From Prevotella sp. oral taxon 475 (lineage in GTDB: Bacteria > Bacteroidota > Bacteroidia > Bacteroidales > Bacteroidaceae), in contig NZ_CP072334.1 in the NCBI RefSeq assembly GCF_018127805.1, positions 660,001 through 724,000 of the forward strand: a DNA stretch of 64,000 bases. Reading direction: 5' to 3'. Below the pieces are notes generated by a model. The model worked only from the letters and a program-made list of their open reading frames with translations, did not search any database and was not told the DNA's origin. Positions 43,814 to 63,814 of the stretch are shown piece after piece. The translations under genes were made by a program, and so were the position numbers. Every line of letters begins with the position of its first letter. Positions within the stretch are counted from its first letter, which is position 1.

Positions 43814-43825
43814 TTTATTGGTGTG

Positions 43826-45490: not shown

Positions 45491-45513
45491 TGCACACATT
45501 TCAAAATTCTGTG

Positions 45514-47507: not shown

Positions 47508-48338
47508 ATGGCAACACAAAAGACAGCCAGCCCTGCTAAAAAATCACAGGGCTTTCAAGGTATTAGAGCAGCATTTTGGGTAATCGTTTGCTGTTTCATC
47601 GTAGCAGCATGCTTCTTCAAGTTCTATCTTGGCAATCCTATTCACTTCCAAGGTGGCGATCCCGAAGGACATCCGCTGGACATCTGGGGCACCATTTACA
47701 AAGGTGGTTTGGTGGTTCCGGTGATTCAGACCTTGCTCTTGACCGTGCTTGCACTCTCTGTAGAGCGTTGGTTGGCTCTGCGTAATGCTTTCGGAAGAGG
47801 CTCCTTGACCAAGTTCGTGGTGAACATCAAAGCCGCCCTCAATGAGAAAGACTTCAACAAGGCACAACAGCTCTGCGACAAGCAGAAAGGCTCTGTAGCC
47901 AATGTCGTATCTGCTTCGCTGAACGCTTACAAGATGATGGAAGCAGCAACCGGCATTAAGAAAGCCCAGAAGATCGCTAAGATTCAGCAGGCTCACGAAG
48001 AAGCTACACAGCTCGAAATGCCTACGCTGCAGATGAACCTCCCGATTCTCGCCACTTTGGTAACACTGGGTACGCTGACGGGTCTTCTCGGTACGGTAAC
48101 GGGTATGATCAAATCGTTCCAGGCTTTGGCTGCCGGTGGTGGTGGCGACTCTCTCGCATTGTCTGCCGGTATTTCTGAGGCTCTGATCAATACGGCCTTC
48201 GGTATCACAACATCTTGGTTTGCTGTTATTTCTTATGGCTTCTTTACCAATAAGATTGACAAGCTGACTTACGCCGTTGATGAGGTTGGTTATTCTATTG
48301 CTCAGACATACGAAGCCAATCACGAAGACGAAGTTTAA
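47508..48338 (+). CDS. exbB: MotA/TolQ/ExbB proton channel protein
   Basis: The protein has 276 residues with three membrane spans: one near residues 22-42, one near 68-85, and the long conserved pair around LATLVTLGTLTGLLGTVTGMIKSF and SEALINTAFGIT. The N-terminal cytosolic part is short, as in Bacteroidetes ExbB. With ExbD it forms the inner-membrane proton channel that powers TonB-dependent transport. It is the first gene of the six-gene cluster ending at 52978. Confidence 0.95.
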   Translation: MATQKTASPAKKSQGFQGIRAAFWVIVCCFIVAACFFKFYLGNPIHFQGGDPEGHPLDIWGTIYKGGLVVPVIQTLLLTVLALSVERWLALRNAFGRGSLTKFVVNIKAALNEKDFNKAQQLCDKQKGSVANVVSASLNAYKMMEAATGIKKAQKIAKIQQAHEEATQLEMPTLQMNLPILATLVTLGTLTGLLGTVTGMIKSFQALAAGGGGDSLALSAGISEALINTAFGITTSWFAVISYGFFTNKIDKLTYAVDEVGYSIAQTYEANHEDEV

Positions 48339-48369
48339 TTTTTACTAACCCTTTAATCCTTATATCACT

Positions 48370-48981
48370 ATGGGTAAAGTAAAAATTAAGAAGAAGTCTA
48401 CTTGGATAGACATGACTCCGATGAGCGACGTCATGGTACTTCTGCTGACGTTCTTCATGTTGACCTCAACATTTGTAAAGAACGAACCGGTAAAAGTTGT
48501 GACGCCAGGCTCGGTATCGGAAATCAAAGTCCCCGAGAAGAATGTTTTGAATATCTTGGTCGATAAAACCGGGAAGATATTCATGAGCATGGACAACCAA
48601 AACGACACACAAGCCGTTCTTGAAGGGATGGCTGGTCAATTTGGTGTAGAGCTGACAAAGGCCCAGATGCATAAGTTCAAGAAAGACGCTATGTGGGGGG
48701 TACCCATGAGCGACCTCTCTTCTTATCTCAGTCTTTCTGAAACAGAGATGGCTGGTGAACTGAAAAATCATGGCATCCCTACAGACAGTATCGACGGCAA
48801 AAAGAGTGAGTTCCAACTCTGGGTAGAACAAGCTCGCACTCAAAACCCTGATGTCAAACTCGCCATCAAGGCAGACGAGAGTACTCCGTACGCTGTTGTG
48901 AAGAAAGTAATGTCAGAACTACAGGACATGAGTGAGAACCGGTACTATTTGATTACATCGTACAAAAAGGTGGAGGAATAA
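48370..48981 (+). CDS. exbD: ExbD biopolymer transport protein, first copy
   Basis: The protein has 203 residues. The single membrane span contains the proton-carrying Asp in MTPMSDVMVLLLTFFML (about residue 20). The periplasmic part is longer than in E. coli ExbD (141) with an insertion around residues 90-140. Together with the second copy it forms the unusual two-ExbD set found in Bacteroidetes. It lies 31 nt after exbB and 3 nt before the next exbD. Confidence 0.93.
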   Translation: MGKVKIKKKSTWIDMTPMSDVMVLLLTFFMLTSTFVKNEPVKVVTPGSVSEIKVPEKNVLNILVDKTGKIFMSMDNQNDTQAVLEGMAGQFGVELTKAQMHKFKKDAMWGVPMSDLSSYLSLSETEMAGELKNHGIPTDSIDGKKSEFQLWVEQARTQNPDVKLAIKADESTPYAVVKKVMSELQDMSENRYYLITSYKKVEE

Positions 48982-48984
48982 AGA

Positions 48985-49644
48985 ATGGCAGAATTAGTTG
49001 AACAAGGCAAAGGCGGCGGAAAACAAAAAAAGAAAGACGTCCGCGTTGACTTCACCCCTATGGTGGACATGATGATGCTTCTTATCACGTTCTTCATGCT
49101 TTGTACCTCGCTGGCTAAGCCACAGACGATGGAATTGAGTATGCCGAGTAACGATAAGAACATGCAAGATGCAGATAAGTCGGTAACAAAGGCTTCACAG
49201 ACCATTACGATCTATGTAGCCGGAAACAACAAGATTTATCACGTCGATGGATTGCCCAATTACAGCGATCCCTCCATTCTTCAAGAAACGACATGGGGCG
49301 CAGACGGTATTCGTAAAGTGCTCCAGAATCACCAAACGGAAGACGGATCGATTCCTGTTCAGGCAATTATGGCTGCTAAGAGAAAACTGGATCAAAAGAA
49401 GTTGAACGACTCCAAATTTACACAGGCAGAGTACGATAAGGCTCTTTCCAAAATTAAAGGCGGAGAAGTGGATGGGCAGAAAATCCCAACCTTGACCATT
49501 ATCATCAAGGCCACCGATAAAGCTTCTTACAAGAACTTGGTAGATGTTCTCGACGAAATGCAGATATGCAGTATTGGTAAGTATGTCATTGACAAAATCA
49601 ATCCCCAGGATCTTGAGCTTCTCAAGAAACGAGGAATTGAGTAA
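48985..49644 (+). CDS. exbD: ExbD biopolymer transport protein, second copy
   Basis: The protein has 219 residues. A Lys-rich N terminus (KQKKKDVRVD) leads into FTPMVDMMMLLITFFML with the Asp. A long periplasmic domain follows, ending in KATDKASYKNLVDVLDEMQICSIGKYVI. The two ExbD proteins probably occupy the two different positions of the ExbD dimer inside the ExbB pore. It starts 3 nt after the first copy. Confidence 0.93.
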   Translation: MAELVEQGKGGGKQKKKDVRVDFTPMVDMMMLLITFFMLCTSLAKPQTMELSMPSNDKNMQDADKSVTKASQTITIYVAGNNKIYHVDGLPNYSDPSILQETTWGADGIRKVLQNHQTEDGSIPVQAIMAAKRKLDQKKLNDSKFTQAEYDKALSKIKGGEVDGQKIPTLTIIIKATDKASYKNLVDVLDEMQICSIGKYVIDKINPQDLELLKKRGIE

Positions 49645-49685
49645 TGTTGTGACCTCATTAATTAATAATTAAAAAGGAAAGAACA

Positions 49686-50519
49686 ATGTCAAAGATAGAT
49701 TTGGTTGCAGGCGATTGGGTCGACTTGGTGTTTGAAGGTAAGAACCAAGCTTATGGTGCTTACAAACTCCGCAAGGGAACTACCAAGCGAAACATTATCG
49801 CTATGTTCGCTGTACTTGCTGCTGCTGTAGTCCTGTTCTCGTTCGTTGCAATTAAAAGCGTGATAGAAGCGAATCAGAAGGCAGTCGCCGTTACACAGGC
49901 CAACGAACTTTCTGCTCTTGATAAGGTAAAGAAGAAAGCAGAGGTAAAACAGAAACCGAAAGTGAATGTTGAACCCGAGAAAGTGGTTGAACGTGTGAAA
50001 AGCTCGGTGAAGTTTACCGCACCTGTTATCAAGAAAGATAGTGAAGTAAAACCTGAAGACGAGCTGAAGACGCAAGAAGAGATTATGACCACCAAAACCG
50101 CTATCGGTGCGCTTGATGTAAAGGGTAACGATGACGCTAATGGTGAAGTACTCAAGATTAAGGAAGTGGTGGCACAACCTGAGCCCAAACCCGAAGTGGA
50201 AACAAAGATCTTCGAGGTGGTGGAGCAAATGCCTACCTTCCCCGGAGGCGATGCTGCCTTAATGGAATTCTTGAGAAAGAACGTTGTATATCCCGTTGTA
50301 GCACAAGAGAACGGTGTTCAGGGACGTGTCGTTATCTCGTTCGTTGTAGAGCGTGATGGCTCTATCACCGACGTGAAGGTGGCTCGTTCCGTAGACCCTT
50401 CATTGGATAGAGAAGCAGCCCGTGTGGTAAAGAGCATGCCTAACTGGATTCCCGGTAAGCAAAATGGCTCTTCTGTACGTGTGAAGTACAACGTTCCGGT
50501 GTCATTCAGATTGCAATAA
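49686..50519 (+). CDS. tonB: Energy transducer TonB
   Basis: The protein has 277 residues. An N-terminal cytosolic segment (about 1-35) precedes the membrane span (about 36-58), then a Lys/Glu/Val/Pro-rich spacer (60-180). The C-terminal domain (185-277) has MPTFPGGDAALMEFLRKN, GRVVISFVVERDGSITDV and VPVSFRLQ, the Bacteroidetes TonB form. It carries proton-motive energy to outer-membrane receptors such as the one at 34987. The long cytosolic N-terminal segment is typical of this phylum. Confidence 0.95.
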   Translation: MSKIDLVAGDWVDLVFEGKNQAYGAYKLRKGTTKRNIIAMFAVLAAAVVLFSFVAIKSVIEANQKAVAVTQANELSALDKVKKKAEVKQKPKVNVEPEKVVERVKSSVKFTAPVIKKDSEVKPEDELKTQEEIMTTKTAIGALDVKGNDDANGEVLKIKEVVAQPEPKPEVETKIFEVVEQMPTFPGGDAALMEFLRKNVVYPVVAQENGVQGRVVISFVVERDGSITDVKVARSVDPSLDREAARVVKSMPNWIPGKQNGSSVRVKYNVPVSFRLQ

Positions 50520-50528
50520 CAGGCTTTT

Positions 50529-51488
50529 ATGAAGAAATACACATCTTACATCTTAGTAGGATTAACACTGTGTGCTTACGTCTTGGCTTCCTGCGGAGAG
50601 CGGAAGCGCAAAGACGGGCGGACAGATACATATTCGTCAGGGGTGATTCGTTTCGCCTCTGACGAAAGTTTTAGTCCCATTATCGACGAAGAACGGAATA
50701 TTTTTCAGTCTACATATCCAAATGCAAAAGTAAATCCCATTTACACAAACGAGTCGGATGGGATTAATCGGCTTCTTAAAGGCAGCGTGAATTTGGTCAT
50801 CACCAGTCGCGACCTAAAGAAAGCAGAATATCAAAACTTTATCGATCGACAGTTCCGTCCACAGACCATCAAACTGGCATACGACGGATTGGCGTTGATT
50901 GTTAACAAAAACAATAACGATACTTGCATCTCTGTGAAAGATTTTGCCAGAGTGCTGAGAGGAGAAGTAAGAACGTGGGCCGATTTATTCCCCGGTTCGA
51001 AAAGAGGAGACATTATTGTAGTCTTCGATAACAGAAAGTCGAGCACTGTACACTTTGTCGAAGACTCGGTGTTAGGTGGGAAACCGATCATCAATCCCAA
51101 TGCGGTGGCTACTAACAAGACTGCAGAAGTGATCGACTACGTGGAAAAAACACCAGGCGCCATAGGTATTATCGGTAGTAATTGGCTGAACGATAAGCGA
51201 GATACCACCAACCTCACCTTTAACAAGAACATTCGTTTAATGTCGGTAAGCAAAAAAGACAAGGGCACACCTGCCAATAGTTGGAAGCCTTACCAATATT
51301 ATATATATAACGGGAATTATCCCTTGATTCGCACGATCTATGCCTTATTGAACGACCCTTACAACGGATTGCCTTGGGGATTTGCCCAATTCATTGCCTC
51401 ACCAAAGGGACAAATGATTATTCTTAAGTCGGGGTTGCTGCCCGTACAGGGTAACATAACCATAAGGGATGTTAATGTTAATCAATAG
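50529..51488 (+). CDS. PstS-like substrate-binding lipoprotein
   Basis: The protein has 319 residues. A lipoprotein signal ends in VLASCGER. The fold is PstS-type (PBP-like): FASDESFSPIIDEER, LVITSRDLKKAEY, NPNAVATNKTAEVIDYVEKTPGAIGIIG. No Pst permease genes lie nearby; the gene sits 9 nt after tonB, so it may serve a TonB-linked task rather than phosphate import. Phosphate-like binding is inferred from fold only. Confidence 0.85.
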   Translation: MKKYTSYILVGLTLCAYVLASCGERKRKDGRTDTYSSGVIRFASDESFSPIIDEERNIFQSTYPNAKVNPIYTNESDGINRLLKGSVNLVITSRDLKKAEYQNFIDRQFRPQTIKLAYDGLALIVNKNNNDTCISVKDFARVLRGEVRTWADLFPGSKRGDIIVVFDNRKSSTVHFVEDSVLGGKPIINPNAVATNKTAEVIDYVEKTPGAIGIIGSNWLNDKRDTTNLTFNKNIRLMSVSKKDKGTPANSWKPYQYYIYNGNYPLIRTIYALLNDPYNGLPWGFAQFIASPKGQMIILKSGLLPVQGNITIRDVNVNQ

Positions 51489-51559
51489 ACAAAACATTTA
51501 TCGCCCTGCTACGTCTTAATAACAATCAACATGTTGAACAAACTTTAGAAAATAAGATT

Positions 51560-52978
51560 ATGAAAGCAATTAAATATCTACTCATCGGTGTATTGGCGAC
51601 GGGTCTCCATGCACCATTGAAGGCACAGGACAACAAAGCCACAATTGATGCCATCTCGAAAGTGATTAAGGAGAATCCGGCGGCCGCAAAAGACCAAGTA
51701 AAAGAAGTATTCAAAAAGAACAAGAAAAATGCAGAGGTGCTTGCAGGTATAGGACGTGCCTATTATGAGGCGAAAGACACTGCCAATGCCAAGGTTTACG
51801 CCAATCTCGCCATTAAAGCGAACAAAAACTATGCGCAGGGTTACATTCTCCTGGGCGATCTTGAGGTGCTGAAAGATGATGGTGGAGCTGCAGCCAGTTG
51901 GTACCAACAGGCTATTTATTTCGATCCTAAAGAGCCGGAAGGATATTTTAAGTATGCCAATATCTATCGCGGACGCAGTCCGGAGGAAGCTGTTGCTAAA
52001 CTGAACGATCTTCGTACGCAGCGGCCGGACATCGCTGTTGATGCTTTGGCAGCCCGCATCCTTTATTCTTCAAACCGTCTTGATCAGAGTTTGCAATACT
52101 ATGACAAGGTGACCGACAAGAATAAACTGGAAGATGTCGACATCACCAACTACGCAACAGAGGCCTGGATGCTGCAAAAGCGCGACAAAAGTTTGGAGAT
52201 GGCCAAATATGGTTTGACCCGGAATCCCCGGAAAGCTGCTTGGAATCGCCTTGCCTTCTATAATCTCACGGACATGGAGCAGACCGCTGAAGCCTTGAAA
52301 TATGCCGATGCTCTTTTCAACGCTTCAGACAGTGCCAAACTTTCGGGTTTCGACTATACCTATTATGGTACGGCCCTGAAAAACGATAAGCAATACGATA
52401 AGGCTATCGAGATGTTTAAAAAGGCAATGGAAGAAAACAAAGACAACGCCGAACTGCTGAACAGCAACCGGAAATCTCTCTCCGATCTATATCTTGCTAA
52501 GGAAGATTTCGAGCAAGCCACCACCTATTATGCAGCTTACCTCGAAAACGCTTCGAAGAAAACGGCAAGTGATATGGCCGGCTTAGCTACTATCTACATG
52601 AATATGGCCTCAAAGCAAACCGGTGATAAGCAAAAGGAAACGTTGAAGAAGGCTGATGAGATCTATGCTCAATTGGGCGAGAAGTTTCCGGCCAATATCG
52701 ACTTTGCTAACTTCATGCGTGCCCGTATCAATTCGAATCTCGACCCCGAGACCAAAGAAGGACTTGCAAAGCCTTTCTATGAAGCCATTGTTACGTCTCT
52801 CGCAGATAAAGCCGATAGAGACCGAGCCGACACTGCTCGTTTGATGGAAGCCTACCGATATTTGGGCTATTACTACTTGGTGAAGAATGACAAAGCCACG
52901 GCTGATGGTTATTGGAATAAACTCTTGGCTATCGATCCCAATAACGAAACGGCCAAACAAGCTTTGGGCATCAAGTAA
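51560..52978 (+). CDS. TPR repeat protein, exported
   Basis: The protein has 472 residues. A signal peptide ends near APLKAQDN. The rest is tetratricopeptide-like repeats from about residue 40 to the C terminus (for example YYEAKDTANAKVYANLAIKAN and AIEMFKKAMEENKDNAELLN). It should be a periplasmic scaffold. Its place as the last gene of the exbB-exbD-exbD-tonB-pstS cluster suggests a structural or assembly role in energised transport. It is followed by a strong terminator. Confidence 0.88.
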   Translation: MKAIKYLLIGVLATGLHAPLKAQDNKATIDAISKVIKENPAAAKDQVKEVFKKNKKNAEVLAGIGRAYYEAKDTANAKVYANLAIKANKNYAQGYILLGDLEVLKDDGGAAASWYQQAIYFDPKEPEGYFKYANIYRGRSPEEAVAKLNDLRTQRPDIAVDALAARILYSSNRLDQSLQYYDKVTDKNKLEDVDITNYATEAWMLQKRDKSLEMAKYGLTRNPRKAAWNRLAFYNLTDMEQTAEALKYADALFNASDSAKLSGFDYTYYGTALKNDKQYDKAIEMFKKAMEENKDNAELLNSNRKSLSDLYLAKEDFEQATTYYAAYLENASKKTASDMAGLATIYMNMASKQTGDKQKETLKKADEIYAQLGEKFPANIDFANFMRARINSNLDPETKEGLAKPFYEAIVTSLADKADRDRADTARLMEAYRYLGYYYLVKNDKATADGYWNKLLAIDPNNETAKQALGIK

Positions 52979-53630: not shown

Positions 53631-53660
53631 TTGTTATCCACGGCAAAAAGCGTACTTTTG
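53631..53660 (+). promoter_or_regulatory. Promoter of the envelope-glycan operon
   Basis: TTG (53631-53633), a 19-nt gap, then TACTTTTG (53653-53660). The leader to the first ATG at 53679 is only about 12 nt, so there is no room for a long 5' control region. Confidence 0.7.
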
Positions 53661-53678: not shown

Positions 53679-55511
53679 ATGAAGTTTTTAGAATTCACAA
53701 CGAGACTCTTCCGCGGGGTGTTTTGGCCCTTGCGGGTCAATGCCACTTTCTTTTTTTTCATGTACGTACTGGGTATGGTCTGTGCCTGGTGTACACTTCC
53801 AGTCGGCCGCGGAGCACATCTTTATGAATATCTCTATGCCGAACTATTGGTAGATGTCTATGTGTTGTGCGCAATTCTTGCGCTCATCCCTCGGTGTCTG
53901 CGATCTTGGCTGCGCGCGCTGCTCTACCTTATTATATATGCAACAGCAGCGATAGACGTGTATTGTTATGCCCAATTCGGCTCGACCCTTACGCCAACAA
54001 TGCTACTGTTGGTAGCCGAAACCAATGGAAGAGAGGCCGGCGAATTTTTGGCAACCTATCTTTCTTTCGACCTTCTCTTCAGTAAAGTAGGCTGGATTTT
54101 GCTCGTCGCAGGGGTGCATACACTGTTTGTATTGCGCCATTTTGCACCGGAACGATGGCGAGAAGAAGGCCGCTTACTGATAGACAAACTCAAAAAGCCA
54201 ATTCTTCAACAGGCTATGACGACGACATGGGTCGGCGGTGTCCTTTTCACGGGGGGGCTGATATGGAGTGTTTGTCTGTCGGCACATAACAAGACTGCGA
54301 TGATACGACTGATGTCGGGACGTAATATCGGCGAAGTGGAGCACCGATTGACCGAAGATAAACATGCCGTTCTCTATCAGCCTGTTTACCGATTGGTCTT
54401 CAGCTTGTATGCCAATACGCTTGCTGCACAGCAAATCGACCAGCTCATAACTGCCTCCACCCGAGCAACAGTAGACAGCTGTGAATATAAAAGTCCACAT
54501 ATCGTGTTGATTATCGGCGAAAGTTACGGCAAGCATCATGCCCAGATGTACGGTTATACCATGCCCACCACGCCGCGACAAATACGCCGAGAGCGGAGCG
54601 GAAGACTGATAAAGTTCACCGATGTGGTGTCGCCTTGGAACCTGACGAGCTTTGTCTTCAAACATCTTTTTTCGCTTTACGATGTAGGAAGCAAAGGCGA
54701 GTGGTGTGACTATCCGCTTTTCCCGGAATTGTTTCGCAAGGCAGGCTATCACGTTACGTTCATCACCAACCAGTTTTTACCCAAGGCCCGTGAAGCGGTC
54801 TACGACTTCAGCGGCGGTTTCTTCCTCAATCATCCGGTGCTGAGTCAGGCTCAATTCGATACACGCAACGATCGAGTATATCGTTTTGACGAGAGTCTGC
54901 TGGGCGAATACGACCGTTTGCGAGAGCAGAACACCGCGCACAACCTCACCATTTTTCACCTCATGGGACAACATGTGACGTACAAGCAACGCTATCCTAC
55001 CAACAGAGGACGGTGGACGGGGACCGATTACGAAACCCTGCGACCCGATCTGACGAGACGACAAAGGCAGGTCCTGGCGGAGTATGACAACGCCGTGCTG
55101 TACAACGACTCGGTGGTAGATCAGGTGATACGCCGTTTTGAGCGTGAGGAAGCCATCGTCATCTATGTCCCCGATCATGGAGAAGAATGTTATGAAGGCA
55201 ACCGTGGCTTGATTTGTCGTAATCATTCGGCAGAAATCGACTACGACTTGGCCAAGTATGAATTTGAAATTCCGTTTTGGATATGGTGTTCGCGTCGTTA
55301 CGTGCTTCGCCATCCCGAGGTCTATCGGGCAGTGATTGAGGCTCGCCACCGCCGATTCATGACCGACGCTTTGCCACATCTGCTGCTCTACCTGGCTGGC
55401 ATCCACACACGAGATTACAAAGAAGAGAACAACCTTCTGAGTCCGACGTACAACGAACGCCGACCGAGAATTTTGAAAGGAAAAACCGATTATGACACGC
55501 TTCATCCCTGA
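53679..55511 (+). CDS. Phosphoethanolamine transferase-like (EptA/LtaS) membrane enzyme
   Basis: The protein has 610 residues. Five membrane spans lie in residues 1-210. The large periplasmic domain has the alkaline-phosphatase fold: metal-binding IGESYGKHH with Glu281, the candidate nucleophile Thr323 in PWNLTSF, and PDHGEECYE with Asp499 and His500. It should transfer a phosphate-bearing group, such as phosphoethanolamine, onto lipid A or a glycan. The stop overlaps the next gene by 20 nt. Its target cannot be read from sequence; the operon context points to a surface glycan rather than, or in addition to, lipid A. Confidence 0.88.
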   Translation: MKFLEFTTRLFRGVFWPLRVNATFFFFMYVLGMVCAWCTLPVGRGAHLYEYLYAELLVDVYVLCAILALIPRCLRSWLRALLYLIIYATAAIDVYCYAQFGSTLTPTMLLLVAETNGREAGEFLATYLSFDLLFSKVGWILLVAGVHTLFVLRHFAPERWREEGRLLIDKLKKPILQQAMTTTWVGGVLFTGGLIWSVCLSAHNKTAMIRLMSGRNIGEVEHRLTEDKHAVLYQPVYRLVFSLYANTLAAQQIDQLITASTRATVDSCEYKSPHIVLIIGESYGKHHAQMYGYTMPTTPRQIRRERSGRLIKFTDVVSPWNLTSFVFKHLFSLYDVGSKGEWCDYPLFPELFRKAGYHVTFITNQFLPKAREAVYDFSGGFFLNHPVLSQAQFDTRNDRVYRFDESLLGEYDRLREQNTAHNLTIFHLMGQHVTYKQRYPTNRGRWTGTDYETLRPDLTRRQRQVLAEYDNAVLYNDSVVDQVIRRFEREEAIVIYVPDHGEECYEGNRGLICRNHSAEIDYDLAKYEFEIPFWIWCSRRYVLRHPEVYRAVIEARHRRFMTDALPHLLLYLAGIHTRDYKEENNLLSPTYNERRPRILKGKTDYDTLHP

Positions 55512-56625
55512 TCATCCGCTTCGCAGTCCCGAAATAACGCGTGCCGAGGGAGCCTTGTTGCGCGGAATGGCTATCATCGGCATTGTGTTGCACAACTATT
55601 GTCATTGGCTCGGCTCGATTGTGCGGGAGAACGAATACACCTTTCGACAGGGAAACGTAGACGGATTGCTCTCTGTGTTGCAACACCCCGATAGCCGGTT
55701 GCCTCTGCATCTGCTGTCGTTTTTCGGGCATTACGGCGTGCCCATCTTCCTTTTTCTGAGTGCATACGGACTGGAAAAGAAGTACGCCGGCAAGCTTTTA
55801 CAGTCGCCCCCAAGAACTCTCACCAAACGGGTGCGCAGCGTCTTGGGTTTCATGGCAACCCATTACCTTAAACTTTTTCGCCTGATGGCTGTGGGCTTTG
55901 CTATTTTCCTTCTCGTGGATACCCTCACACCGCATCCCTGGCACTATGATATAGAGAAGATCGGAGCGCAATTGTTAATGCTAAACAACCTCTTTTCGCA
56001 ACCCGACCGCATGATTTGGCCCGGACCTTATTGGTTCTTCGGGTTAATGATGCAATTCTATCTGCTCTATCGACTGGTGCTCTATCGGCGGCATTGGGCT
56101 GTGACGGCGGTGCTGATCGCGGTCTGCGTGGTGGTGCAGGGACTGCTTCCGCCCGACGGAGATGCCATGAACCGGTATCGGTATAACTGGATGGGCGGAA
56201 TGTTGCCTTTCGGTTTCGGACTGCTCTACGCCCGATTCGAAAAGTCCCTTGGCACCATTTGTCAGACAAGCATTCGGCTCTTTGTAGGCGTTGCGTTATG
56301 CGTCGGATTAGTGTTTGCTATGAGTCTGAACTTTGTGGGGTGGACCTTCGCCCCCGCTATCGTATGTATGGGCGGCCTCTTGTTGGCAAAAACACTGACG
56401 AGTGCTCCCTTTTTCGGTCTTCTTTCGCAGATGTTGACCTGGTTAGGAAGTATCTCGGCTGCACTATTTGTGGTTCACCCTATTGCCCGAAAGGTCATCA
56501 TCCCCCTTTCTCATCAAGGCCATCTGTACACAGGACTGTTGCTTTACGTCGTCGTGTCTATCATTTTGGCATGGTTGCTTCATCAAGTCATCCGGCGCAT
56601 TCCGCTGCCGCGCCTCAACGATTAA
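55492..56625 (+). CDS. Acyltransferase-3 family membrane protein, first copy
   Basis: The protein has 377 residues with about ten membrane spans. The early GMAIIGIVLHNYCHW carries the family's conserved His in the first span, followed by GHYGVPIFLFLSAYGLEKKY. Members O-acetylate or otherwise acylate surface glycans and lipids, using cytosolic acyl-CoA. It overlaps the phosphatase-fold gene by 20 nt and is 12 nt from the next acyltransferase. The acyl group and acceptor are unknown. Confidence 0.88.
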   Translation: MTRFIPDHPLRSPEITRAEGALLRGMAIIGIVLHNYCHWLGSIVRENEYTFRQGNVDGLLSVLQHPDSRLPLHLLSFFGHYGVPIFLFLSAYGLEKKYAGKLLQSPPRTLTKRVRSVLGFMATHYLKLFRLMAVGFAIFLLVDTLTPHPWHYDIEKIGAQLLMLNNLFSQPDRMIWPGPYWFFGLMMQFYLLYRLVLYRRHWAVTAVLIAVCVVVQGLLPPDGDAMNRYRYNWMGGMLPFGFGLLYARFEKSLGTICQTSIRLFVGVALCVGLVFAMSLNFVGWTFAPAIVCMGGLLLAKTLTSAPFFGLLSQMLTWLGSISAALFVVHPIARKVIIPLSHQGHLYTGLLLYVVVSIILAWLLHQVIRRIPLPRLND

Positions 56626-56637
56626 CACCGTAGGAAG

Positions 56638-57639
56638 ATGCAGTTGAAAGAATTTCAGTGGGCAGGAATCAGCCGATACCGCAGCGAATTGATGGGGCTG
56701 GCCATTCTCTTCGTCATTCTCTTCCATGTCTCGTTGCCCCGGACGGATGCCTTTTTCGGCCTTCGCCGCATGGGCAACATCGGTGTCGACCTCTTCTTCT
56801 TCCTCAGCGGCGTAGGCCTTTGGTTCTCGCTGGCAGAGCGGACGGGACTTAGGAGATTTTTCCGCCGTCGCTATCTACGCATCTATCCCACTTGGTTGAT
56901 CGTGGCTTGTCTTTATTACATTCCGATCTATGTCAAGGGGGGACACAATATTCGGGCCACGATTGATCTCCTGGGCGACATTCTCGTCAACTGGAATTTT
57001 TGGTTGCACGACGAGCTCACCTTTTGGTACATCCCCGCCACGATGATGCTCTACTTTCTCGCGCCGGGCTATGTACGACTTGTGTCGCGTCATCCCGTCT
57101 ACCGATGGCTGCCATTAGTAGCCATTGTGTGGTGTTGCGCGGTGCAGTGGGTAAAGCCCTTGAATGATGCGGTGGGGCATTTGGAGATTTTTTGGAGTCG
57201 CATTCCCATCTTTCTCCTCGGGATGAACTGCGGGCAATGGGTGCGTGACAGTCGAACCGAAACCGGTAGCGCATTGTGGCTTCTTCTCCTACTGATAGTC
57301 CTTCCGCTGGGCACGTGCCTCTACATGGAGCAGCAGTTGCATGGGCGGTTCCCACTTTTCGCAGAGCGAATGTTGTACATCCCGCTGTCAGTCTCAAGCC
57401 TATTATTGTTGAGCAAGTTGTTTTCAGTTGTCCCCGAGCGGGTAAGGCACGCCTTGCGATTCCTGGGCAGTCTGAGTTTGGAGCTCTATCTCCTTCACGC
57501 CCACTTCGTGTTAGTGCATGTGGAGCGTTGGAGACTCACCTATTGGGGAACGGCACTCGTCTGCCTTTTATTGTCGCTCCCCCTGGCGTGGATGCTCCAC
57601 CGTACCGTGCATATTCTAATAAAGAGATTTGAAAAATGA
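56638..57639 (+). CDS. Acyltransferase-3 family membrane protein, second copy
   Basis: The protein has 333 residues with about ten spans. It opens with YRSELMGLAILFVILFHVSL (family His) and NIGVDLFFFLSGVGLWFS. The middle has LRIYPTWLIV and WYIPATMMLYF, as in OafA-like proteins. It differs strongly from the copy upstream, so it is not a recent duplicate. Its stop overlaps the next start by 4 nt. It is a second decoration enzyme for the same surface product. Confidence 0.88.
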   Translation: MQLKEFQWAGISRYRSELMGLAILFVILFHVSLPRTDAFFGLRRMGNIGVDLFFFLSGVGLWFSLAERTGLRRFFRRRYLRIYPTWLIVACLYYIPIYVKGGHNIRATIDLLGDILVNWNFWLHDELTFWYIPATMMLYFLAPGYVRLVSRHPVYRWLPLVAIVWCCAVQWVKPLNDAVGHLEIFWSRIPIFLLGMNCGQWVRDSRTETGSALWLLLLLIVLPLGTCLYMEQQLHGRFPLFAERMLYIPLSVSSLLLLSKLFSVVPERVRHALRFLGSLSLELYLLHAHFVLVHVERWRLTYWGTALVCLLLSLPLAWMLHRTVHILIKRFEK

Positions 57640-58514
57640 GAAACCTCTTGCGCCTTCTCCGTCCACAACAGTGGATCAAGAATGGATTTGTGCTCATCCC
57701 GTTGTTCTTCGGCGGAAAGCTCTTCTCCCCGTCGGCCTCCCTTTCTGGGATTATCGCCTTTTTTGCGTTCAGTTTTGCGGCCTCGGCCATCTATTGTTTC
57801 AATGATATAATTGATGTGGAGGCCGACCGTCGACACCCCGTCAAGCGTTCGCGCCCTATCGCCTCGGGCGCGGTGAGTCTGTCGTGGGCGTATGCGCTGA
57901 TGGGTTGGATGGTTGTGCTCTCAGTTCTGCTCGTGACGCTGCTTCCCATCGGTCGAATGCAGGCGGGGATCGTTATCGCCTTCTACTTTGTACTCAACCT
58001 GGCCTATTGCGCCCGACTCAAGCGTTATGCCATTGTCGATGTATGTGTGGTAGCCTTCGGATTCGTGTTGCGCATCTTTGTGGGTGGATTTGCCACGGGC
58101 GTAACAGTGAGCAACTGGCTCGTACTGATGACCTACCTCCTGGCTCTGTTTCTTTCCTTTGCCAAGCGACGCGACGATGTACTGCGGATGAACGAGACAG
58201 GTGAACCTCCCCGGCAGAACACCATCCGATACAACCTCACCTTCATCAACCAAGCCATCACCATCACGGGCAGCGTCACGTTGGTGTGCTATATCATGTA
58301 TACGGTGTCGCCCGAGGTGATGACCCGCTTCCATGCCCCCAACCTCTACCTCACGAGTATTCTTGTTCTCGTCGGACTCCTGCGATACATCCAACTCACA
58401 GTGGTAGATCGACGCAGCGGCGATCCGACTAAGCTTCTCCTGCGCGACCGCTTTACGCAACTCCTCGTCGCGGCCTGGCTCCTGACGTTTGTCGTGATTA
58501 TCTATTGGGGATGA
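57636..58514 (+). CDS. Decaprenyl-phosphate phosphoribosyltransferase-like UbiA protein
   Basis: The protein has 292 residues with eight or nine spans. The UbiA metal-pyrophosphate motif is NDIIDVEADRRHPVKRSRP (residues 56-74), with the DxxDxxxDRxHPxKRxRPIASG form specific to Rv3806c-type 5-phospho-alpha-D-ribose transferases. A second Asp motif follows, near SFAKRRDDVLR. The mycobacterial homologue moves phosphoribose from PRPP to decaprenyl phosphate, giving decaprenylphosphoryl-5-phosphoribose. It starts inside the end of the acyltransferase gene (4-nt overlap). Confidence 0.9.
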   Translation: MRNLLRLLRPQQWIKNGFVLIPLFFGGKLFSPSASLSGIIAFFAFSFAASAIYCFNDIIDVEADRRHPVKRSRPIASGAVSLSWAYALMGWMVVLSVLLVTLLPIGRMQAGIVIAFYFVLNLAYCARLKRYAIVDVCVVAFGFVLRIFVGGFATGVTVSNWLVLMTYLLALFLSFAKRRDDVLRMNETGEPPRQNTIRYNLTFINQAITITGSVTLVCYIMYTVSPEVMTRFHAPNLYLTSILVLVGLLRYIQLTVVDRRSGDPTKLLLRDRFTQLLVAAWLLTFVVIIYWG

Positions 58515-58542
58515 GATTTTCGGACTTGTCAATTAGTCAACT

Positions 58543-59142
58543 ATGTCTATAAACGTCTCTCTATTCGACTTCGACGGCACCCTCACCACTCGCGACACGC
58601 TGCTCGCCTTCATCCGCTTTGCCAAAGGACGGCGACGACTGTTGTGCGGGCTCCTGCTCCATCTACCCATGCTTCTGTCCATGAAGCTACACCTCTATCC
58701 CAATGGCCGAGCCAAGGAGCGGCTCTTCAGCTTCTTCTTCGCAGGGACGACCGTCGCGCAGTTCCGCCAACTCTGTATCGCATTTGCCCGTGAGCATCGT
58801 CATCTGCTGCGGCCGCAGGGCCTCGAGACGCTCGAAAAAGCACAGAGCGAGGGGCAAATGGTGTTCGTCGTCAGTGCCAGTATTGAAACCTGGGTGAGGC
58901 CATTCTTTCCGCAACTGCCCGAGGGGCATGTCGTGGGAACGCAGGTAGAGGTGATCAACGGCCGACTCACGGGTCGATTTGCCACGCCCAACTGCTACGG
59001 TCCCGAGAAAGTGCGTCGCATCCAGCCCCTCCTGCCCCCGAGACACGAATGTCATATCACAGCCTACGGCGACAGTCGGGGCGATCAAGAAATGTTCAAC
59101 TATGCCCATCAAACGTTTTTTCAACCCTTCCGAACCCGGTAG
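58543..59142 (+). CDS. HAD-IB phosphatase, probable polyprenyl-phospho-5-phosphoribose phosphatase
   Basis: The protein has 199 residues. The HAD nucleophile motif is FDFDGTLT with Asp9 and Asp11; motif II is VFVVSAS; motif IV is YGDSRGDQEM with Asp177 and Asp181. One hydrophobic stretch (LLCGLLLHLPMLLSMKLH, about residues 36-53) may touch the membrane. In gene neighbourhoods of this type such phosphatases remove the 5-phosphate after the UbiA step. Its last 41 nt overlap the next gene in another frame, which points to coupled translation. Confidence 0.88.
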   Translation: MSINVSLFDFDGTLTTRDTLLAFIRFAKGRRRLLCGLLLHLPMLLSMKLHLYPNGRAKERLFSFFFAGTTVAQFRQLCIAFAREHRHLLRPQGLETLEKAQSEGQMVFVVSASIETWVRPFFPQLPEGHVVGTQVEVINGRLTGRFATPNCYGPEKVRRIQPLLPPRHECHITAYGDSRGDQEMFNYAHQTFFQPFRTR

Positions 59143-60862
59143 GCCCCAGCGAGCGGCCGAAATGCTGCGCTTCGCCCTCGTGGGAACGGCCGCCGTACTG
59201 ATACAATACGCCATCTACGCCCTCCTCGTCTGCGCCATCGACCACAACCTGGCCATGAGCGTAGGCTATGGTGTGAGTTTCGTGTTCAACTTTTTGGCCA
59301 GCACGCGCTTCACCTTTCGGGTGGAACGGACGGTGAAACGTGGTGCGGGATTCGCCCTATCACATACGGTGAACTGGCTATTGCAATTAGCCGTTCTCAA
59401 CCTTTTTCTGCGTTTGGGCCTGAGCAAAACTCTGGCTCCCTTGCCCATGTTCGCCATCTGCGTACCTGTAAATTTCGTGATGGTGCGTTTCTTTCTCAAA
59501 CAGAACGGTGTGCGCATTTTCGCGCTCTTCCAACTGCGCCGAGAGGAGTTCGCCCCTGTCGCCCTGTTTTCGGGACTACTCCTGCCGCTCCACGCCTTGC
59601 TCATCGCTCACTACTGGACGCTTTTTACACCACTACGGGCTGAGTATGGCACGATTTTCATCCGCCATTTCCACCTCTCGGGCTTCGACCCCATCACCTA
59701 TTCGGTCATCAGCGAGTGGTCGGCCGGCTACAACGTCTACCGCCACCCCCTGCTCGCTTTCTTCGTTTATCCCCTCTCCCTGCTGAATCAGGGACTGATG
59801 CAGCTCACCGGAATCAACTGCGCCGTCTTCCTCACCGCCGCCCTGTTGCTCTTCTGTGCCCTCTATTCCTTTGTTTTTCTGCATCGCCTGCTGCGCGATG
59901 TCTTGAGTTTATGTTTGGCAGATGCCCGTCTGCTCTCAGCCTTTTTCTTTTCCCTGGCCTACGTGCTGCTCTCGGCCATCGCCCCCGACCATTTCCTCCT
60001 TTCCCTCTTCCTCCTCCTGCTCACACTCTACCTCTCGGGACTGTATCTGCGCCAGCGTGCTCCCCTCCCGACCGTGACCACCCTTCTGCTCTTCATCCTC
60101 ACGGCCGGCGTTTCGCTCAACAACGGTCTGAAAGTATTTCTTGCGGCCCTTTTTACACGAGGCCGCGGTTTCTTCCGTCCCCATTTTCTCCTGCTGGCTG
60201 TTTTGCTTCCAGCCGCTCTGCTGTGGCAATTCTCGCGTTTCGAATATCGACAGTTTGTCTGGGCAGGCGAAGTGGCTCGGCATGAGGCGCGCGCCAAGCA
60301 GAAGGCCGTACGACAGAGGCAGCTCCCCACACTGCAACGGCAGAGCCCACCGCCAAAGACGGCTCCGAAAATGGGTACGCCGATGATGCAGGGCGAGTTC
60401 ATGCGGTGGACGGACGTGTCCACCCCGCGCCTATCGTCCACCGTAGAAAATCTCTTCGGCGAGAGTTTTCAGCTGCATCGCGACCATCTCCTGGAAGACC
60501 TCTTCGGCACCCGTCCCGTCATCCTGCCTTATCGCTGCGTTGTCAATTACGTCGTCGAAGCCCTGCTCGTGTTGCTCTTTCTGGCAGGAGTGATATGCGG
60601 CCGCTACAACCGGCTCTTGCAGCTGGCCCTCTCCTTTGCCCTGCTTGACTGGGCTTTGCATCTGGGCCTGGGCTTCGGACTCAACGAAGTCTACATCATG
60701 ACGGTCCATTGGGCCTACGTCGTCCCTCTTGCCCTGGCCTGCCTTTTCATGAGGCTCCGCGGCGGCTCGCTTCGCCTTTTGCGCGTCCTCGTACTGCTGC
60801 TCACCATCTGGCTCTATGGTTGGAACCTTTCTGCCCTCGTTTCCTATCTTCTCCCGGCATAA
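59102..60862 (+). CDS. GtrA domain fused to a GT-C-like multispan domain (DUF6080-type)
   Basis: The protein has 586 residues. The GtrA domain covers about residues 19-140 with four spans (FALVGTAAVLIQYAIYAL, VSFVFNFLASTRFTFRV). The second domain (about 150-586) has eight or more spans. Its first outer loop reads FHLSGFDPITYSV...YRHPLL with an Asp and a His-Pro typical of GT-C glycosyltransferase loops. It is paralogous to the whole next protein. The fusion of a flippase-like and a transferase-like part is unusual. The start at 59102 lies inside the HAD gene (41-nt overlap); upstream in-frame residues would merely shadow it. Confidence 0.82.
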   Translation: MPIKRFFNPSEPGRPQRAAEMLRFALVGTAAVLIQYAIYALLVCAIDHNLAMSVGYGVSFVFNFLASTRFTFRVERTVKRGAGFALSHTVNWLLQLAVLNLFLRLGLSKTLAPLPMFAICVPVNFVMVRFFLKQNGVRIFALFQLRREEFAPVALFSGLLLPLHALLIAHYWTLFTPLRAEYGTIFIRHFHLSGFDPITYSVISEWSAGYNVYRHPLLAFFVYPLSLLNQGLMQLTGINCAVFLTAALLLFCALYSFVFLHRLLRDVLSLCLADARLLSAFFFSLAYVLLSAIAPDHFLLSLFLLLLTLYLSGLYLRQRAPLPTVTTLLLFILTAGVSLNNGLKVFLAALFTRGRGFFRPHFLLLAVLLPAALLWQFSRFEYRQFVWAGEVARHEARAKQKAVRQRQLPTLQRQSPPPKTAPKMGTPMMQGEFMRWTDVSTPRLSSTVENLFGESFQLHRDHLLEDLFGTRPVILPYRCVVNYVVEALLVLLFLAGVICGRYNRLLQLALSFALLDWALHLGLGFGLNEVYIMTVHWAYVVPLALACLFMRLRGGSLRLLRVLVLLLTIWLYGWNLSALVSYLLPA

Positions 60863-60897
60863 TCCTCTCCACCGTCACTTTATCCCAATCGCAACGC

Positions 60898-62235
60898 ATG
60901 AATAAGTTCAAACTCAAGAAGGACGAACGCCCCATTGCCCTGGTGGCTTTCCTCGTCTTTGCCTGTCAAAACGCTCTGACGCTGTATCGCTATCACGAGG
61001 AGTTCACCCGGGTGGGATACATGGGACTGTGGACGCTTTTCCACGGTCGGTTCCACGTTTCCGGCTTCGATGCCTTCTCGTGCATCTATCTCTCCAATGG
61101 TAAGATTTTCTACGAACTCTCCCGTCACCCACTCTTCGGCCCGATACTCGCACCCCTCTATTGGATCAACGCCGCCATCATCCGTCATTTCGATTTCAAT
61201 GCCGCTATCTATCTCATGGCTGCCCTGCTCACGGTCTGCGCCACATGGTCTTTCCTGCTGATGCACCGCATCCTGACCGAACTGGTGGGTCTGCGCCGTA
61301 CGGATGCTCTTCTCCTCTCGGCCCTGCTGTTCTCCTTTGCCTCGGTGATGCTCGCCGCCATGCTCCCCGATCATTTTCTCTTCTCCCTCTTCCTCCTCCT
61401 GCTCACCCTTTACCTCGCCGGTCGAAACCTCCTCCGTCATCGCCCCATGCCTTGGTGGCAAACGGCTCTGCTCTTCTTCTTCACGGCCGGCGTAACACTC
61501 AGCAACGGAGCGAAAACCCTGCTCGCCTCTCTCTTCGCCAATGGGAAGGCCTATTTTCGACCACGCCACCTTCTCCTCTCCACCCTCCTTCCGCTGGCTC
61601 TTCTCGGAGCCGCCTATTATGCGCAGTATGTTTTCCAGTTGCTGCCGCGGCAACGCGAGTCGGCCCATATCGAGGCGATGCGAATCAAGAAGGATAGCAT
61701 TTTTGTGCAGAAAAGTCTGGAGCACGAGGCGCGTAAGCATCGCATCATCGGCAGACCAATGGGCAACGATGCCTTACTGAAGTGGACCGATAAAGACACG
61801 CCGCGACTACAGAGCCTGATCGAGAATGTCTTTGGCGAGTCGATACAGCTGCATCGCGAACACCTGCTTGAAGACATGTTCGTGTCGCGCCCCGTCATCG
61901 TGCACTATCATCATGGGGTTTTCTATGTTGTCGAGGCAGCCATTTGTCTACTCTTCGTTCTCGGTCTATGGTGTGCGCGGCACGAACGCCTGCTGTGGCT
62001 CTGCCTCTCGTGGTTGGGCTGCGATGTCTTTCTACATCTCGTCTTGGGCTTTGGCCTCAACGAGGTCTACATCATGGGAGCCCATTGGCTCTTCATCCTT
62101 CCCCTCGCCATCGCTTTCCTCTTGAAGCGGTTGCCTCCTCGGTCCGCCGTTGTCCTGCGCCTTGTTCTGTTGCTGCTCACCCTTTACCTCTGGGCATACA
62201 ACGGCACCCTCATTGCGGGCTTTATGCTGGCGTAA
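60898..62235 (+). CDS. DUF6080-type GT-C-like multispan membrane protein
   Basis: The protein has 445 residues. It has about ten spans with a first outer loop RFHVSGFDAFSCIYL...LSRHPLFG, a central helix-rich part with Arg/Lys (QRESAHIEAMRIKKDS) and a conserved block ENVFGESIQLHREHLLEDMF. The same block is ENLFGESFQLHRDHLLEDLF in the upstream fusion protein. The layout looks like a GT-C glycosyltransferase; I know it only as a domain of unknown function (my name DUF6080 is from memory). The ATG at 60898 follows the previous stop by 35 nt. It is the last gene of the operon. Confidence 0.8.
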   Translation: MNKFKLKKDERPIALVAFLVFACQNALTLYRYHEEFTRVGYMGLWTLFHGRFHVSGFDAFSCIYLSNGKIFYELSRHPLFGPILAPLYWINAAIIRHFDFNAAIYLMAALLTVCATWSFLLMHRILTELVGLRRTDALLLSALLFSFASVMLAAMLPDHFLFSLFLLLLTLYLAGRNLLRHRPMPWWQTALLFFFTAGVTLSNGAKTLLASLFANGKAYFRPRHLLLSTLLPLALLGAAYYAQYVFQLLPRQRESAHIEAMRIKKDSIFVQKSLEHEARKHRIIGRPMGNDALLKWTDKDTPRLQSLIENVFGESIQLHREHLLEDMFVSRPVIVHYHHGVFYVVEAAICLLFVLGLWCARHERLLWLCLSWLGCDVFLHLVLGFGLNEVYIMGAHWLFILPLAIAFLLKRLPPRSAVVLRLVLLLLTLYLWAYNGTLIAGFMLA

Positions 62236-62245
62236 AATTTCTTAC

Positions 62246-62388
62246 GATGTGCGAGAAGTCATCTCTTGTGGTGTCAATGATGCTCGCGCACAGAACACCA
62301 AGTACTCTTTTGCTAACAACCGCATAGCGGTTGGTCCGTTGGGTAGAGCAGGGTAGGCGAGTGAAACGAGCCTACTCTGCTCTACCAT
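62246..62388. repeat. Partial copy of the 481-bp-spaced module
   Basis: 62246-62388 matches the left part of the modules at 62742 and 63223: CGATGT.CGAGAA..., then GCTAACAACCGC, GGTTGGTC and GTGAAACGAGCCTAC. It lacks the right half. Confidence 0.8.
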
Positions 62389-62396
62389 CTGCGGAA

Positions 62397-62642
62397 GCTA
62401 CTGAACTGTTCAAAACCATCGCGGAGACCAAAATGGAGCTACTGAACTGTTCAAAACGGCCACGGAGACCAAAATGGTGCCACTGAACTGTTCAAAACCG
62501 CCACCGAGACCAAAATGGTGCTACTGAGTCGCTCAAAACCGCTGCGGAGGCAAAAATGATGCTACTGAGTCGCTCAAAACGGTCGCGGAGACAAAAATGG
62601 TGCTACTGAGTCGCTCAAAACCGTCAGGGAGGCAAAAATATA
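62397..62642. repeat. Tandem repeat, six copies of 41 bp
   Basis: Copies start at 62397, 62438, 62479, 62520, 62561 and 62602. The unit is GCTACTGA(A/G)(C/T)... TTCAAAAC..C.CGGAG.C(C/A)AAAATG. The first three copies read CTGAACTGTTC, the last three CTGAGTCGCTC. The 41-bp period is not a multiple of three, so it does not encode a protein repeat. Confidence 0.95.
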
Positions 62643-63571: not shown

Positions 63572-63814
63572 CCTGATACACGGCAAACATAAATCCAATG
63601 CATAGCAGATACGATTCCAATACATAACAAATGATTTTCTGATGCATGGCAGATGGTCTACCAATGTATGACAAATGCTATTTCGATATATGGCAGATGA
63701 CCTCATGATGCGCGGGAGATGACCTCCTGATGTGCGGGAGATGACCTCCTGATGTGCGGGAGATGACTTCCTGATACGCAAGAGGTGACTTCCCGCATAT
63801 CGGGAAGTCACCTC
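63555..63814. repeat. Degenerate 22-bp tandem repeat ending in a hairpin
   Basis: Units of the form GATGACCTCCTGATGTGCGGGA recur at a 22-bp period with increasing divergence toward the left; related units also lie at 63085-63190. The last units form the hairpin at 63782-63814. Confidence 0.85.
63782..63814. terminator. Strong hairpin at the end of the tandem
   Basis: GAGGTGACTTCCCG (63782-63795) pairs exactly with CGGGAAGTCACCTC (63801-63814). CGCTATTTTT follows on the plus strand. It lies 70 nt beyond the stop of the small acidic gene on the minus strand, so it may also end that transcript. Confidence 0.6.

Follow-up and report, generated by a model that had tools for sequence, protein, structure and literature searches.

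A predicted pentofuranosylation operon with DUF6080 proteins in Prevotella sp. oral taxon 475

The operon and its predicted proteins

We analysed a 64,000-nucleotide stretch of the Prevotella sp. oral taxon 475 genome (NCBI RefSeq assembly GCF_018127805.1, contig NZ_CP072334.1, positions 660,001 to 724,000 of the forward strand; hereafter, the window), focusing on a seven-gene operon predicted to transfer a pentofuranose, probably ribofuranose, outside the cytoplasm. The operon spans 53679-62235 on the plus strand and encodes a phosphoethanolamine (PEtN) transferase homologue, two Acyl_transf_3 proteins, a UbiA protein, a HAD-IB phosphatase, a GtrA::DUF6080 fusion and a second DUF6080 protein. 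Its junctions are tight, measuring -20, +12, -4, +28, -41 and +35 bp from 5' to 3'. An earlier note on this DNA had described a UbiA protein, a HAD-IB phosphatase, GtrA and two multispan proteins as one coupled operon. All five features lie at the positions it gave and the junctions bear out the coupling, but the noted span omits the first three genes, placing the start 4 kb too late. GtrA is also not a separate protein, but a domain of the first multispan protein (59102-60862). The operon comprises the following features.

53679..55511, plus strand: operon gene 1, EptA/CptA-like PEtN transferase homologue (PF00884, PF08019)
55492..56625, plus strand: membrane O-acyltransferase homologue (PF01757, 68.6 bits), overlapping the preceding gene by 20 bp
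56638..57639, plus strand: second membrane O-acyltransferase homologue (PF01757, 98.5 bits), overlapping the UbiA gene by 4 bp
57636..58514, plus strand: predicted UbiA-fold polyprenyl-phosphate phosphoribosyltransferase of the decaprenylphosphoryl-5-phosphoribose (DPPR) synthase type (NF008978, PF01040)
58543..59142, plus strand: HAD-IB phosphatase with a predicted PRP role, removal of the 5-phosphate (TIGR01490, 106.2 bits, cut-off 98.3)
59102..59515, plus strand: GtrA domain with four helices, predicted flippase, fused to the following DUF6080 domain (PF04138)
59516..60862, plus strand: first DUF6080 domain, predicted glycosyltransferase C (GT-C) type, C-terminal part of the fusion 59102-60862 (PF19558, 564.4 bits)
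60898..62235, plus strand: second DUF6080 protein, predicted GT-C type (PF19558, 534.5 bits)

The UbiA protein carries NDIIDVEADRRHPVKRSRP at residues 56-74 (motif codons start at 57801), matching the motif that the earlier note had singled out as specific to decaprenyl-phosphate phosphoribosyltransferases. It exceeds the cut-off of the NCBIfam model for these enzymes (NF008978; 235.5 bits, cut-off 207) and stays under those of the sister models NF008977 (208.9 of 234) and NF008976 (175.1 of 474). Its closest solved relative by sequence is a mycobacterial DPPR synthase (PDB 8j8j; E 4.6e-42, residues 4-289), and no second UbiA homologue was found in its own genome at E <= 1 (self-match only). 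Residues N56, D57, D60, D64, H67, K70 and R73 are invariant in 57/57 Prevotella-clade rows and in the 21 other rows of the alignment. In loop IV, R178 occurs in every row having a letter at that position, and D181 is replaced by E in 13/21 non-Prevotella rows. Kelly et al. (2024; main text of PMC11127046) report that the phosphoribosyltransferase PPPRS needs its loop II residues for activity but tolerates replacement of R and E in loop IV. A 78-row tree groups the Prevotella UbiAs into a single clade (57 rows, 100/99) amid DprE-linked and other UbiAs of the phylum, with Hoylesella and other Prevotellaceae as the nearest named rows to the source organism; the tree is rough, with an unsettled bootstrap, several long branches and five rows less than half filled, and we use this clade alone. 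On a long branch outside the clade lies the UbiA of G347, the order's other genome with a UbiA-HAD-DUF6080 arrangement.

The HAD-IB translation carries the nucleophile motif DFDGTLT. GtrA scores 60.4 bits against PF04138 (cut-off 26.1), and its predicted model has four membrane helices. The two DUF6080 copies share 45% identity over 416 columns, and no other Pfam family matches the second up to E 1. Whether the multispan proteins have a GT-C fold was a point on which the earlier note had staked its proposal; the predicted models do show one. The Asp and His-Pro that it placed in the first outer loop correspond to D58 and R76-H77-P78, invariant in 89/89 aligned DUF6080 rows. D58 lies between helix 8-36 and helix 80-98 of the predicted model and is a candidate for a catalytic role. 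When the DUF6080 alignment was used for another protein search, the best 120 matches listed were again all PF19558 proteins, and our search of the open-access literature found no paper on DUF6080.

Linkage, fusions and co-occurrence across genomes

A scan of named genomes for DUF6080 relatives gave 375 confirmed matches; the figures here cover the best 80 of the 375, representing 78 loci, some of them cut by contig ends. Seventy-seven loci are named Prevotella, Hoylesella, Segatella, Leyella, Hallella, Xylanibacter or Prevotellaceae and one is from an uncultured bacterium. The closest relative among the matches listed is from Hoylesella loescheii (67%), and two genomes labelled Segatella copri (L102 and L116) carry the operon. 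Six-frame searches detected HAD in 62 loci and GtrA in 37; the PEtN-transferase homologue turned up in 48 and UbiA in 55, always together with HAD. Since UbiA lies on the same strand as a DUF6080 gene and within 6 kb of it in 54 of the 55 UbiA-bearing loci, the association is more than chance. The PEtN-transferase homologue accompanies UbiA in 46 of these 55 loci and an acyltransferase in 52. Among the 23 loci without UbiA, 21 belong to genomes with a UbiA elsewhere. We viewed 11 of these unlinked UbiAs: nine belong to an EptA/acyltransferase/UbiA module, that of L189 is accompanied by just an acyltransferase homologue, and that of Hoylesella marshii lies in a polysaccharide cluster.

In H. 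marshii (L133, L188), the UbiA gene is missing from the operon between the second acyltransferase and HAD. The other UbiA of this species (197.1 bits, cut-off 207) lies ~80 kb away, near EpsG, GT2/GT4 genes and a gene for a 561-aa protein without any Pfam match.

Open reading frames in the 78 loci reveal three types of gene fusion: HAD::GtrA in seven, GtrA::DUF6080 in four and HAD::DUF6080 in two. The same-genus genome G394 also has a HAD::GtrA fusion. In a single record, an apparent fusion could arise from a frameshift or sequencing error, but this can hardly account for all of them. All three types fit a membrane part whose N-terminus is cytoplasmic. These pairwise fusions suggest that phosphatase, flippase and transferase act as one complex.

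Co-occurrence follows the same pattern. In a phylum sample of 395 genomes, DUF6080 is found in 12 and UbiA in 138, including all 12 (Fisher 2.4e-6); in a family sample of 281, DUF6080 is found in 17 and UbiA in 27, including all 17 (P 1.2e-20). These P values ignore relatedness, and by genus the phylum result is just 0.012. Of the 19 genomes sampled from the window's genus, 16 have both genes and three have neither. In another genus of the family (G403:C20:24678-27448), UbiA lies ~0.8 kb before a DUF6080 match within a 947-aa open frame, perhaps a further DUF6080 fusion.

Donor sugar, acceptor and competing explanations

The earlier note, which named DprE1/DprE2 as the makers of the arabinose form, had seen neither in the window and proposed searching the genome for both; in that search, too, neither orthologue was found. 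We compared 20 of the 138 phylum-sample UbiA loci (in one of them, L079, no UbiA frame was found) together with those of G394, G347 and G219. Near UbiA, a ~440-aa DprE1 homologue occurs in 9/20 loci and a ~243-aa DprE2 homologue in 10/20. One DprE1 homologue scanned reached 439.4 bits against NF053785 (cut-off 500), and one DprE2 homologue 147.5 bits against NF053786 (cut-off 250), behind the short-chain dehydrogenase/reductase (SDR) model NF005489 (236.7, cut-off 267). Because these scores fall below the curated cut-offs, the names DprE1 and DprE2 rest on homology and neighbourhood. A 9-row DprE1 profile gave full-length matches (1.4e-192 or better) in 9/14 genomes, five of which had contributed no row (G049, G095, G210, G265 and G277), and weak pieces only in G391. 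DUF6080 adjoins UbiA in four phylum-sample genomes: the source genome (G000), G394, G347 and G219, in the last of which the DUF6080 match is weak (1.4e-7) and on the opposite strand to UbiA, with HAD not detected. The DprE1 profile found no match at E <= 1 in G000 and nothing in the other three. The single G000 protein over the PF01565 cut-off is 334 aa long and MurB-like, a name read from its sequence, and we rejected it as DprE1.

Wider searches agreed. DprE1 was found in 0/281 family-sample genomes (0/162 of those at least 90% complete) and in 0/48 named DUF6080 genomes, where both controls (G308, G331) came out positive but had given rows to the profile. The flanks of the named-record loci held DprE1/DprE2 matches in 0/78 cases. 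For DprE2, the best match in G000 was 3.2e-27, compared with 1.8e-103 or better in nine orthologue-bearing genomes. Because orthologues of DprE1/DprE2 were not found in G000, ribofuranose is, judging from sequence, most likely the default product of the pathway.

Other genomes of the phylum have UbiA-DprE1-DprE2-HAD clusters (L069-L072, L075, L077) with the same UbiA family and a HAD homologue. Unlike the Prevotella operon, they carry DprE1/DprE2 homologues and have no DUF6080 beside UbiA; since they carry DprE1/DprE2 homologues, they probably make arabinofuranose. A 551-557-aa protein encoded near UbiA/DprE genes at three loci (L077:10147-11802 and relatives in L073 and L076) has the look of a membrane protein and may be another transferase; the L077 protein has no Pfam or NCBIfam match.

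On this evidence we consider it likely that the operon encodes an extracytoplasmic pentofuranosylation system, with D-ribofuranose as its most likely sugar. HAD would remove the 5-phosphate to give undecaprenyl-P-ribofuranose, which GtrA would pass to the periplasmic leaflet, directly to the fused DUF6080 domain. The two DUF6080 enzymes would then attach ribofuranose to an envelope molecule, either at two separate sites or one residue after the other. D58 is the candidate catalytic base, and the candidate phosphate and sugar ligands are R76-H77 together with His, Glu and Arg residues further along. The same envelope molecule may also receive PEtN and acyl groups from the operon. Sequence, structure prediction and genomics support this interpretation: the computation shows the families, motifs, predicted folds, gene linkage, fusions and co-occurrence and the failure to find DprE1/DprE2, while donor, product, linkage and acceptor are predictions. 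With somewhat less assurance, we lean towards a broader proposal: DUF6080 (PF19558) would be a new GT-C family that uses polyprenyl-P-ribofuranose, is coupled by fusion to its own phosphatase and GtrA, and adds ribofuranose to an envelope molecule, together with same-operon PEtN and acyl groups, a trait widespread among oral, gut and rumen Prevotellaceae. This would give a domain of unknown function a specific, testable role and predicts an unreported envelope sugar on common human and rumen commensals.

The pathway type is already known, because Kelly et al. proved PPPRS, PRP phosphatase and a GT-C enzyme (GT136) for alpha-ribofuranose on Citrobacter O antigen (PMC11127046, main text); the operon in Prevotella varies this type with parts that are new. 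That main text contains no word beginning bacteroid, prevotella or duf, and it reports further candidate systems in unknown glycans (its supplement). In Citrobacter youngae O1/O2, the parts are ORF15 (PPPRS with a PRP domain), ORF14 (a MATE protein, the predicted flippase) and ORF12 (GT136 GT-C) (PMC11127046). Both systems have, by prediction in Prevotella, a UbiA-fold transferase from phosphoribosyl pyrophosphate (PRPP) to polyprenyl-P, a HAD phosphatase, a separate flippase, a GT-C protein with an acidic residue near its first transmembrane helix and a ribofuranose donor, and both are without DprE1/DprE2. A gene set of the three-component type (PPPRS, phosphatase, flippase, GT-C) lies together in Prevotella. 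Unlike in Citrobacter, HAD is separate from UbiA, being free or, in relatives, joined to GtrA or DUF6080; the operon has GtrA instead of a MATE-family flippase (no search for MATE proteins was made beyond the operon); DUF6080 (445 aa) has an all-helical model, whereas ORF12 ends in a carbohydrate-binding module (residues 503-652); and two GT-Cs stand in tandem, linked to PEtN/acyl transferase homologues and outside any O-antigen locus. Periplasmic ribofuranose addition may thus exist in Bacteroidales with a different flippase and transferase.

The D-Araf glycosylation of type IV pilin in Pseudomonas, whose transferase is TfpW and where DprE genes are expected, likewise shares PPPRS, phosphatase and GT-C. 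It differs from the Prevotella proposal in its pilin acceptor and its arabinose, and the system is mentioned in PMC11127046. The mycobacterial decaprenylphosphoryl arabinose pathway (Rv3806c, Rv3807c, DprE1/DprE2, Rv3789, Emb/Aft) differs in the DprE1/DprE2 pair, not found in the Prevotella genome, and in its phosphatase: the Prevotella one is a HAD enzyme, and Rv3807c is unrelated to HAD PRPs (PMC11127046, main text). O-antigen glucosylation by GtrA/GtrB/Gtr-X also combines a GtrA-type flippase with a GT-C transferase (PMC11127046), but its donor synthase is GtrB, where the Prevotella operon has a UbiA enzyme.

Several observations weigh against the proposal that DUF6080 transfers ribofuranose from this donor. 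Foldseek's own E-values for matching the GT-C fold are modest, at best 3.6e-3 and thus never down to 1e-3, and the DUF6080 family profile finds no GT-C enzyme by sequence; against PDB sequences it gave weak non-GT-C matches alone (best E 0.02, FAM155A). In 25 UbiA-bearing loci no GtrA was detected, and the flippase there must therefore be unlinked or different; 2/78 genomes, both metagenome-assembled, show no UbiA. The source genome also holds generic SDR proteins, among them the best match to the DprE2 profile given above. Eight f5 genomes have distant DUF6080 proteins (19-20% identity for three aligned) apart from UbiA, yet carry DprE1/DprE2, and the DUF6080 family is therefore not specific to ribose. 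Finally, the lipopolysaccharide (LPS) of S. copri DSM 18205, an R-LPS with Man, Glc, Kdo, phosphate and PEtN on Kdo O-4, has no pentose term in the main text of its description (PMC12643348), and the P. intermedia protein O-glycan is without pentose in the available text of PMC10897501; presence of the operon in these strains is not established.

The distant DUF6080 genes of f5 (L029, L031-L037) sit in similar surroundings; at L032 the neighbours encode SelO, a penicillin-binding protein and a protein with a Por secretion tail.

The same pathway could end in another pentofuranose, arabino or xylo, through an epimerase unrelated to DprE1/DprE2 and encoded elsewhere in the genome. A single SDR turns undP-Ribf into undP-Xylf and the GT-C takes either donor (PMC11127046, main text); the generic SDR proteins, like the DprE1/DprE2 co-occurring with DUF6080 relatives in f5, also lend this idea some weight. 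We nevertheless regard it as unlikely, given the lack of a reductase or epimerase gene in the operon, of DprE1/DprE2 matches in the flanks and of DprE1 in the family genomes. More improbable still is that DUF6080 uses a different lipid donor, for example a GtrA-flipped undecaprenyl-P-hexose, with UbiA and HAD as mere neighbours. GtrA is known from GtrB hexose systems (PMC11127046), mannosyltransferases are among the nearest DUF6080 folds, DUF6080 does not stand beside UbiA in f5, and the H. marshii operon has lost UbiA. Yet H. marshii retains a UbiA, the operon has no GtrB-type GT2, HAD::DUF6080 fusions exist, DUF6080 is restricted to UbiA-bearing genomes in the family sample (17/17), and 76/78 named-record DUF6080 genomes have UbiA, unlinked cases included. 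There is a barely appreciable chance that the UbiA protein is a prenyltransferase of the aromatic or quinone/heme kind, in a cluster unrelated to pentoses, and this reading is refuted at sequence level. The protein does belong to the UbiA superfamily (PF01040), and UbiA-like aromatic enzymes such as Ubi-297 occur in Flavobacteria, but Ubi-297 falls in a group separate from DPPR synthases and in an ebo cluster (available text of PMC9235831). We rejected the quinone/heme identity, which the earlier note had named as an outcome that would refute its proposal, on scores of 27.9 bits to the quinone model TIGR01474 and 25.0 bits to the heme model TIGR01473, against 235.5 bits to the DPPR-synthase model; conservation of all motif residues, the adjacent HAD phosphatase and 8j8j as best solved relative argue the same way.

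Turning to the acceptor of the proposed ribofuranose, the operon partners, a PEtN-transferase homologue and acyltransferases, suggest an envelope glycolipid or glycan. In known systems, PEtN transferases and acyltransferases act on such molecules. Of the earlier note's claim that lipid-linked D-ribofuranose is made and moved to a surface glycan, the pathway part is supported, and the acceptor is inferred from these partners. Within the same donor pathway, and compatibly with the reading favoured here, DUF6080 might instead modify proteins or another lipid, which has a modest chance, greater than that of any alternative above. Oligosaccharyltransferase (OST) and protein mannosyltransferase (PMT) enzymes are among the closest DUF6080 folds, the operon and its immediate upstream region contain no glycan assembly genes, and S. 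copri LPS as described lacks pentose; the partner genes and the pentose-free P. intermedia protein O-glycan speak on the other side. The earlier note expected an envelope modification new to Bacteroidales. We found no open-access paper on ribose in a Prevotella envelope glycan, nor one on DprE1 in Bacteroidetes, but transfer of lipid-linked ribofuranose by a GT-C enzyme is already known in bacteria (PMC11127046).

Promoter-like element and surroundings

One further feature precedes the operon.

53631..53660, plus strand: promoter-like element TTG-N19-TANNTTTG, 18 bp before the first operon gene

This pattern, which we take to be the Bacteroidota -33/-7 promoter type, has three exact matches in the window compared with 0.58 expected from shuffles, and that at 53631-53660 is the sole one on the plus strand. 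The product of operon gene 1 scores 174.3 bits against the CptA model NF007933, under the cut-off of 404. A phage-defence reading was rejected, as PADLOC matched 0/7 proteins, and Rfam matches were to tRNA only. Directly upstream (47508-52978) lie genes for ExbB, two ExbD, TonB, a periplasmic binding protein and a TPR protein, apparently a TonB-energising cluster and a unit separate from the operon. Two adjacent AMP-binding ligases (554 and 557 aa) are encoded on the minus strand at 42149-45499. On the 3' side of the operon are two tandem arrays, at 62397-62639 (41-bp unit x5.5, 86% matches) and 63695-63793 (22-bp unit x4.5, 89% matches). They sit among longer dispersed repeats; by eye, sequence near 62310, 62745 and 63224 recurs.

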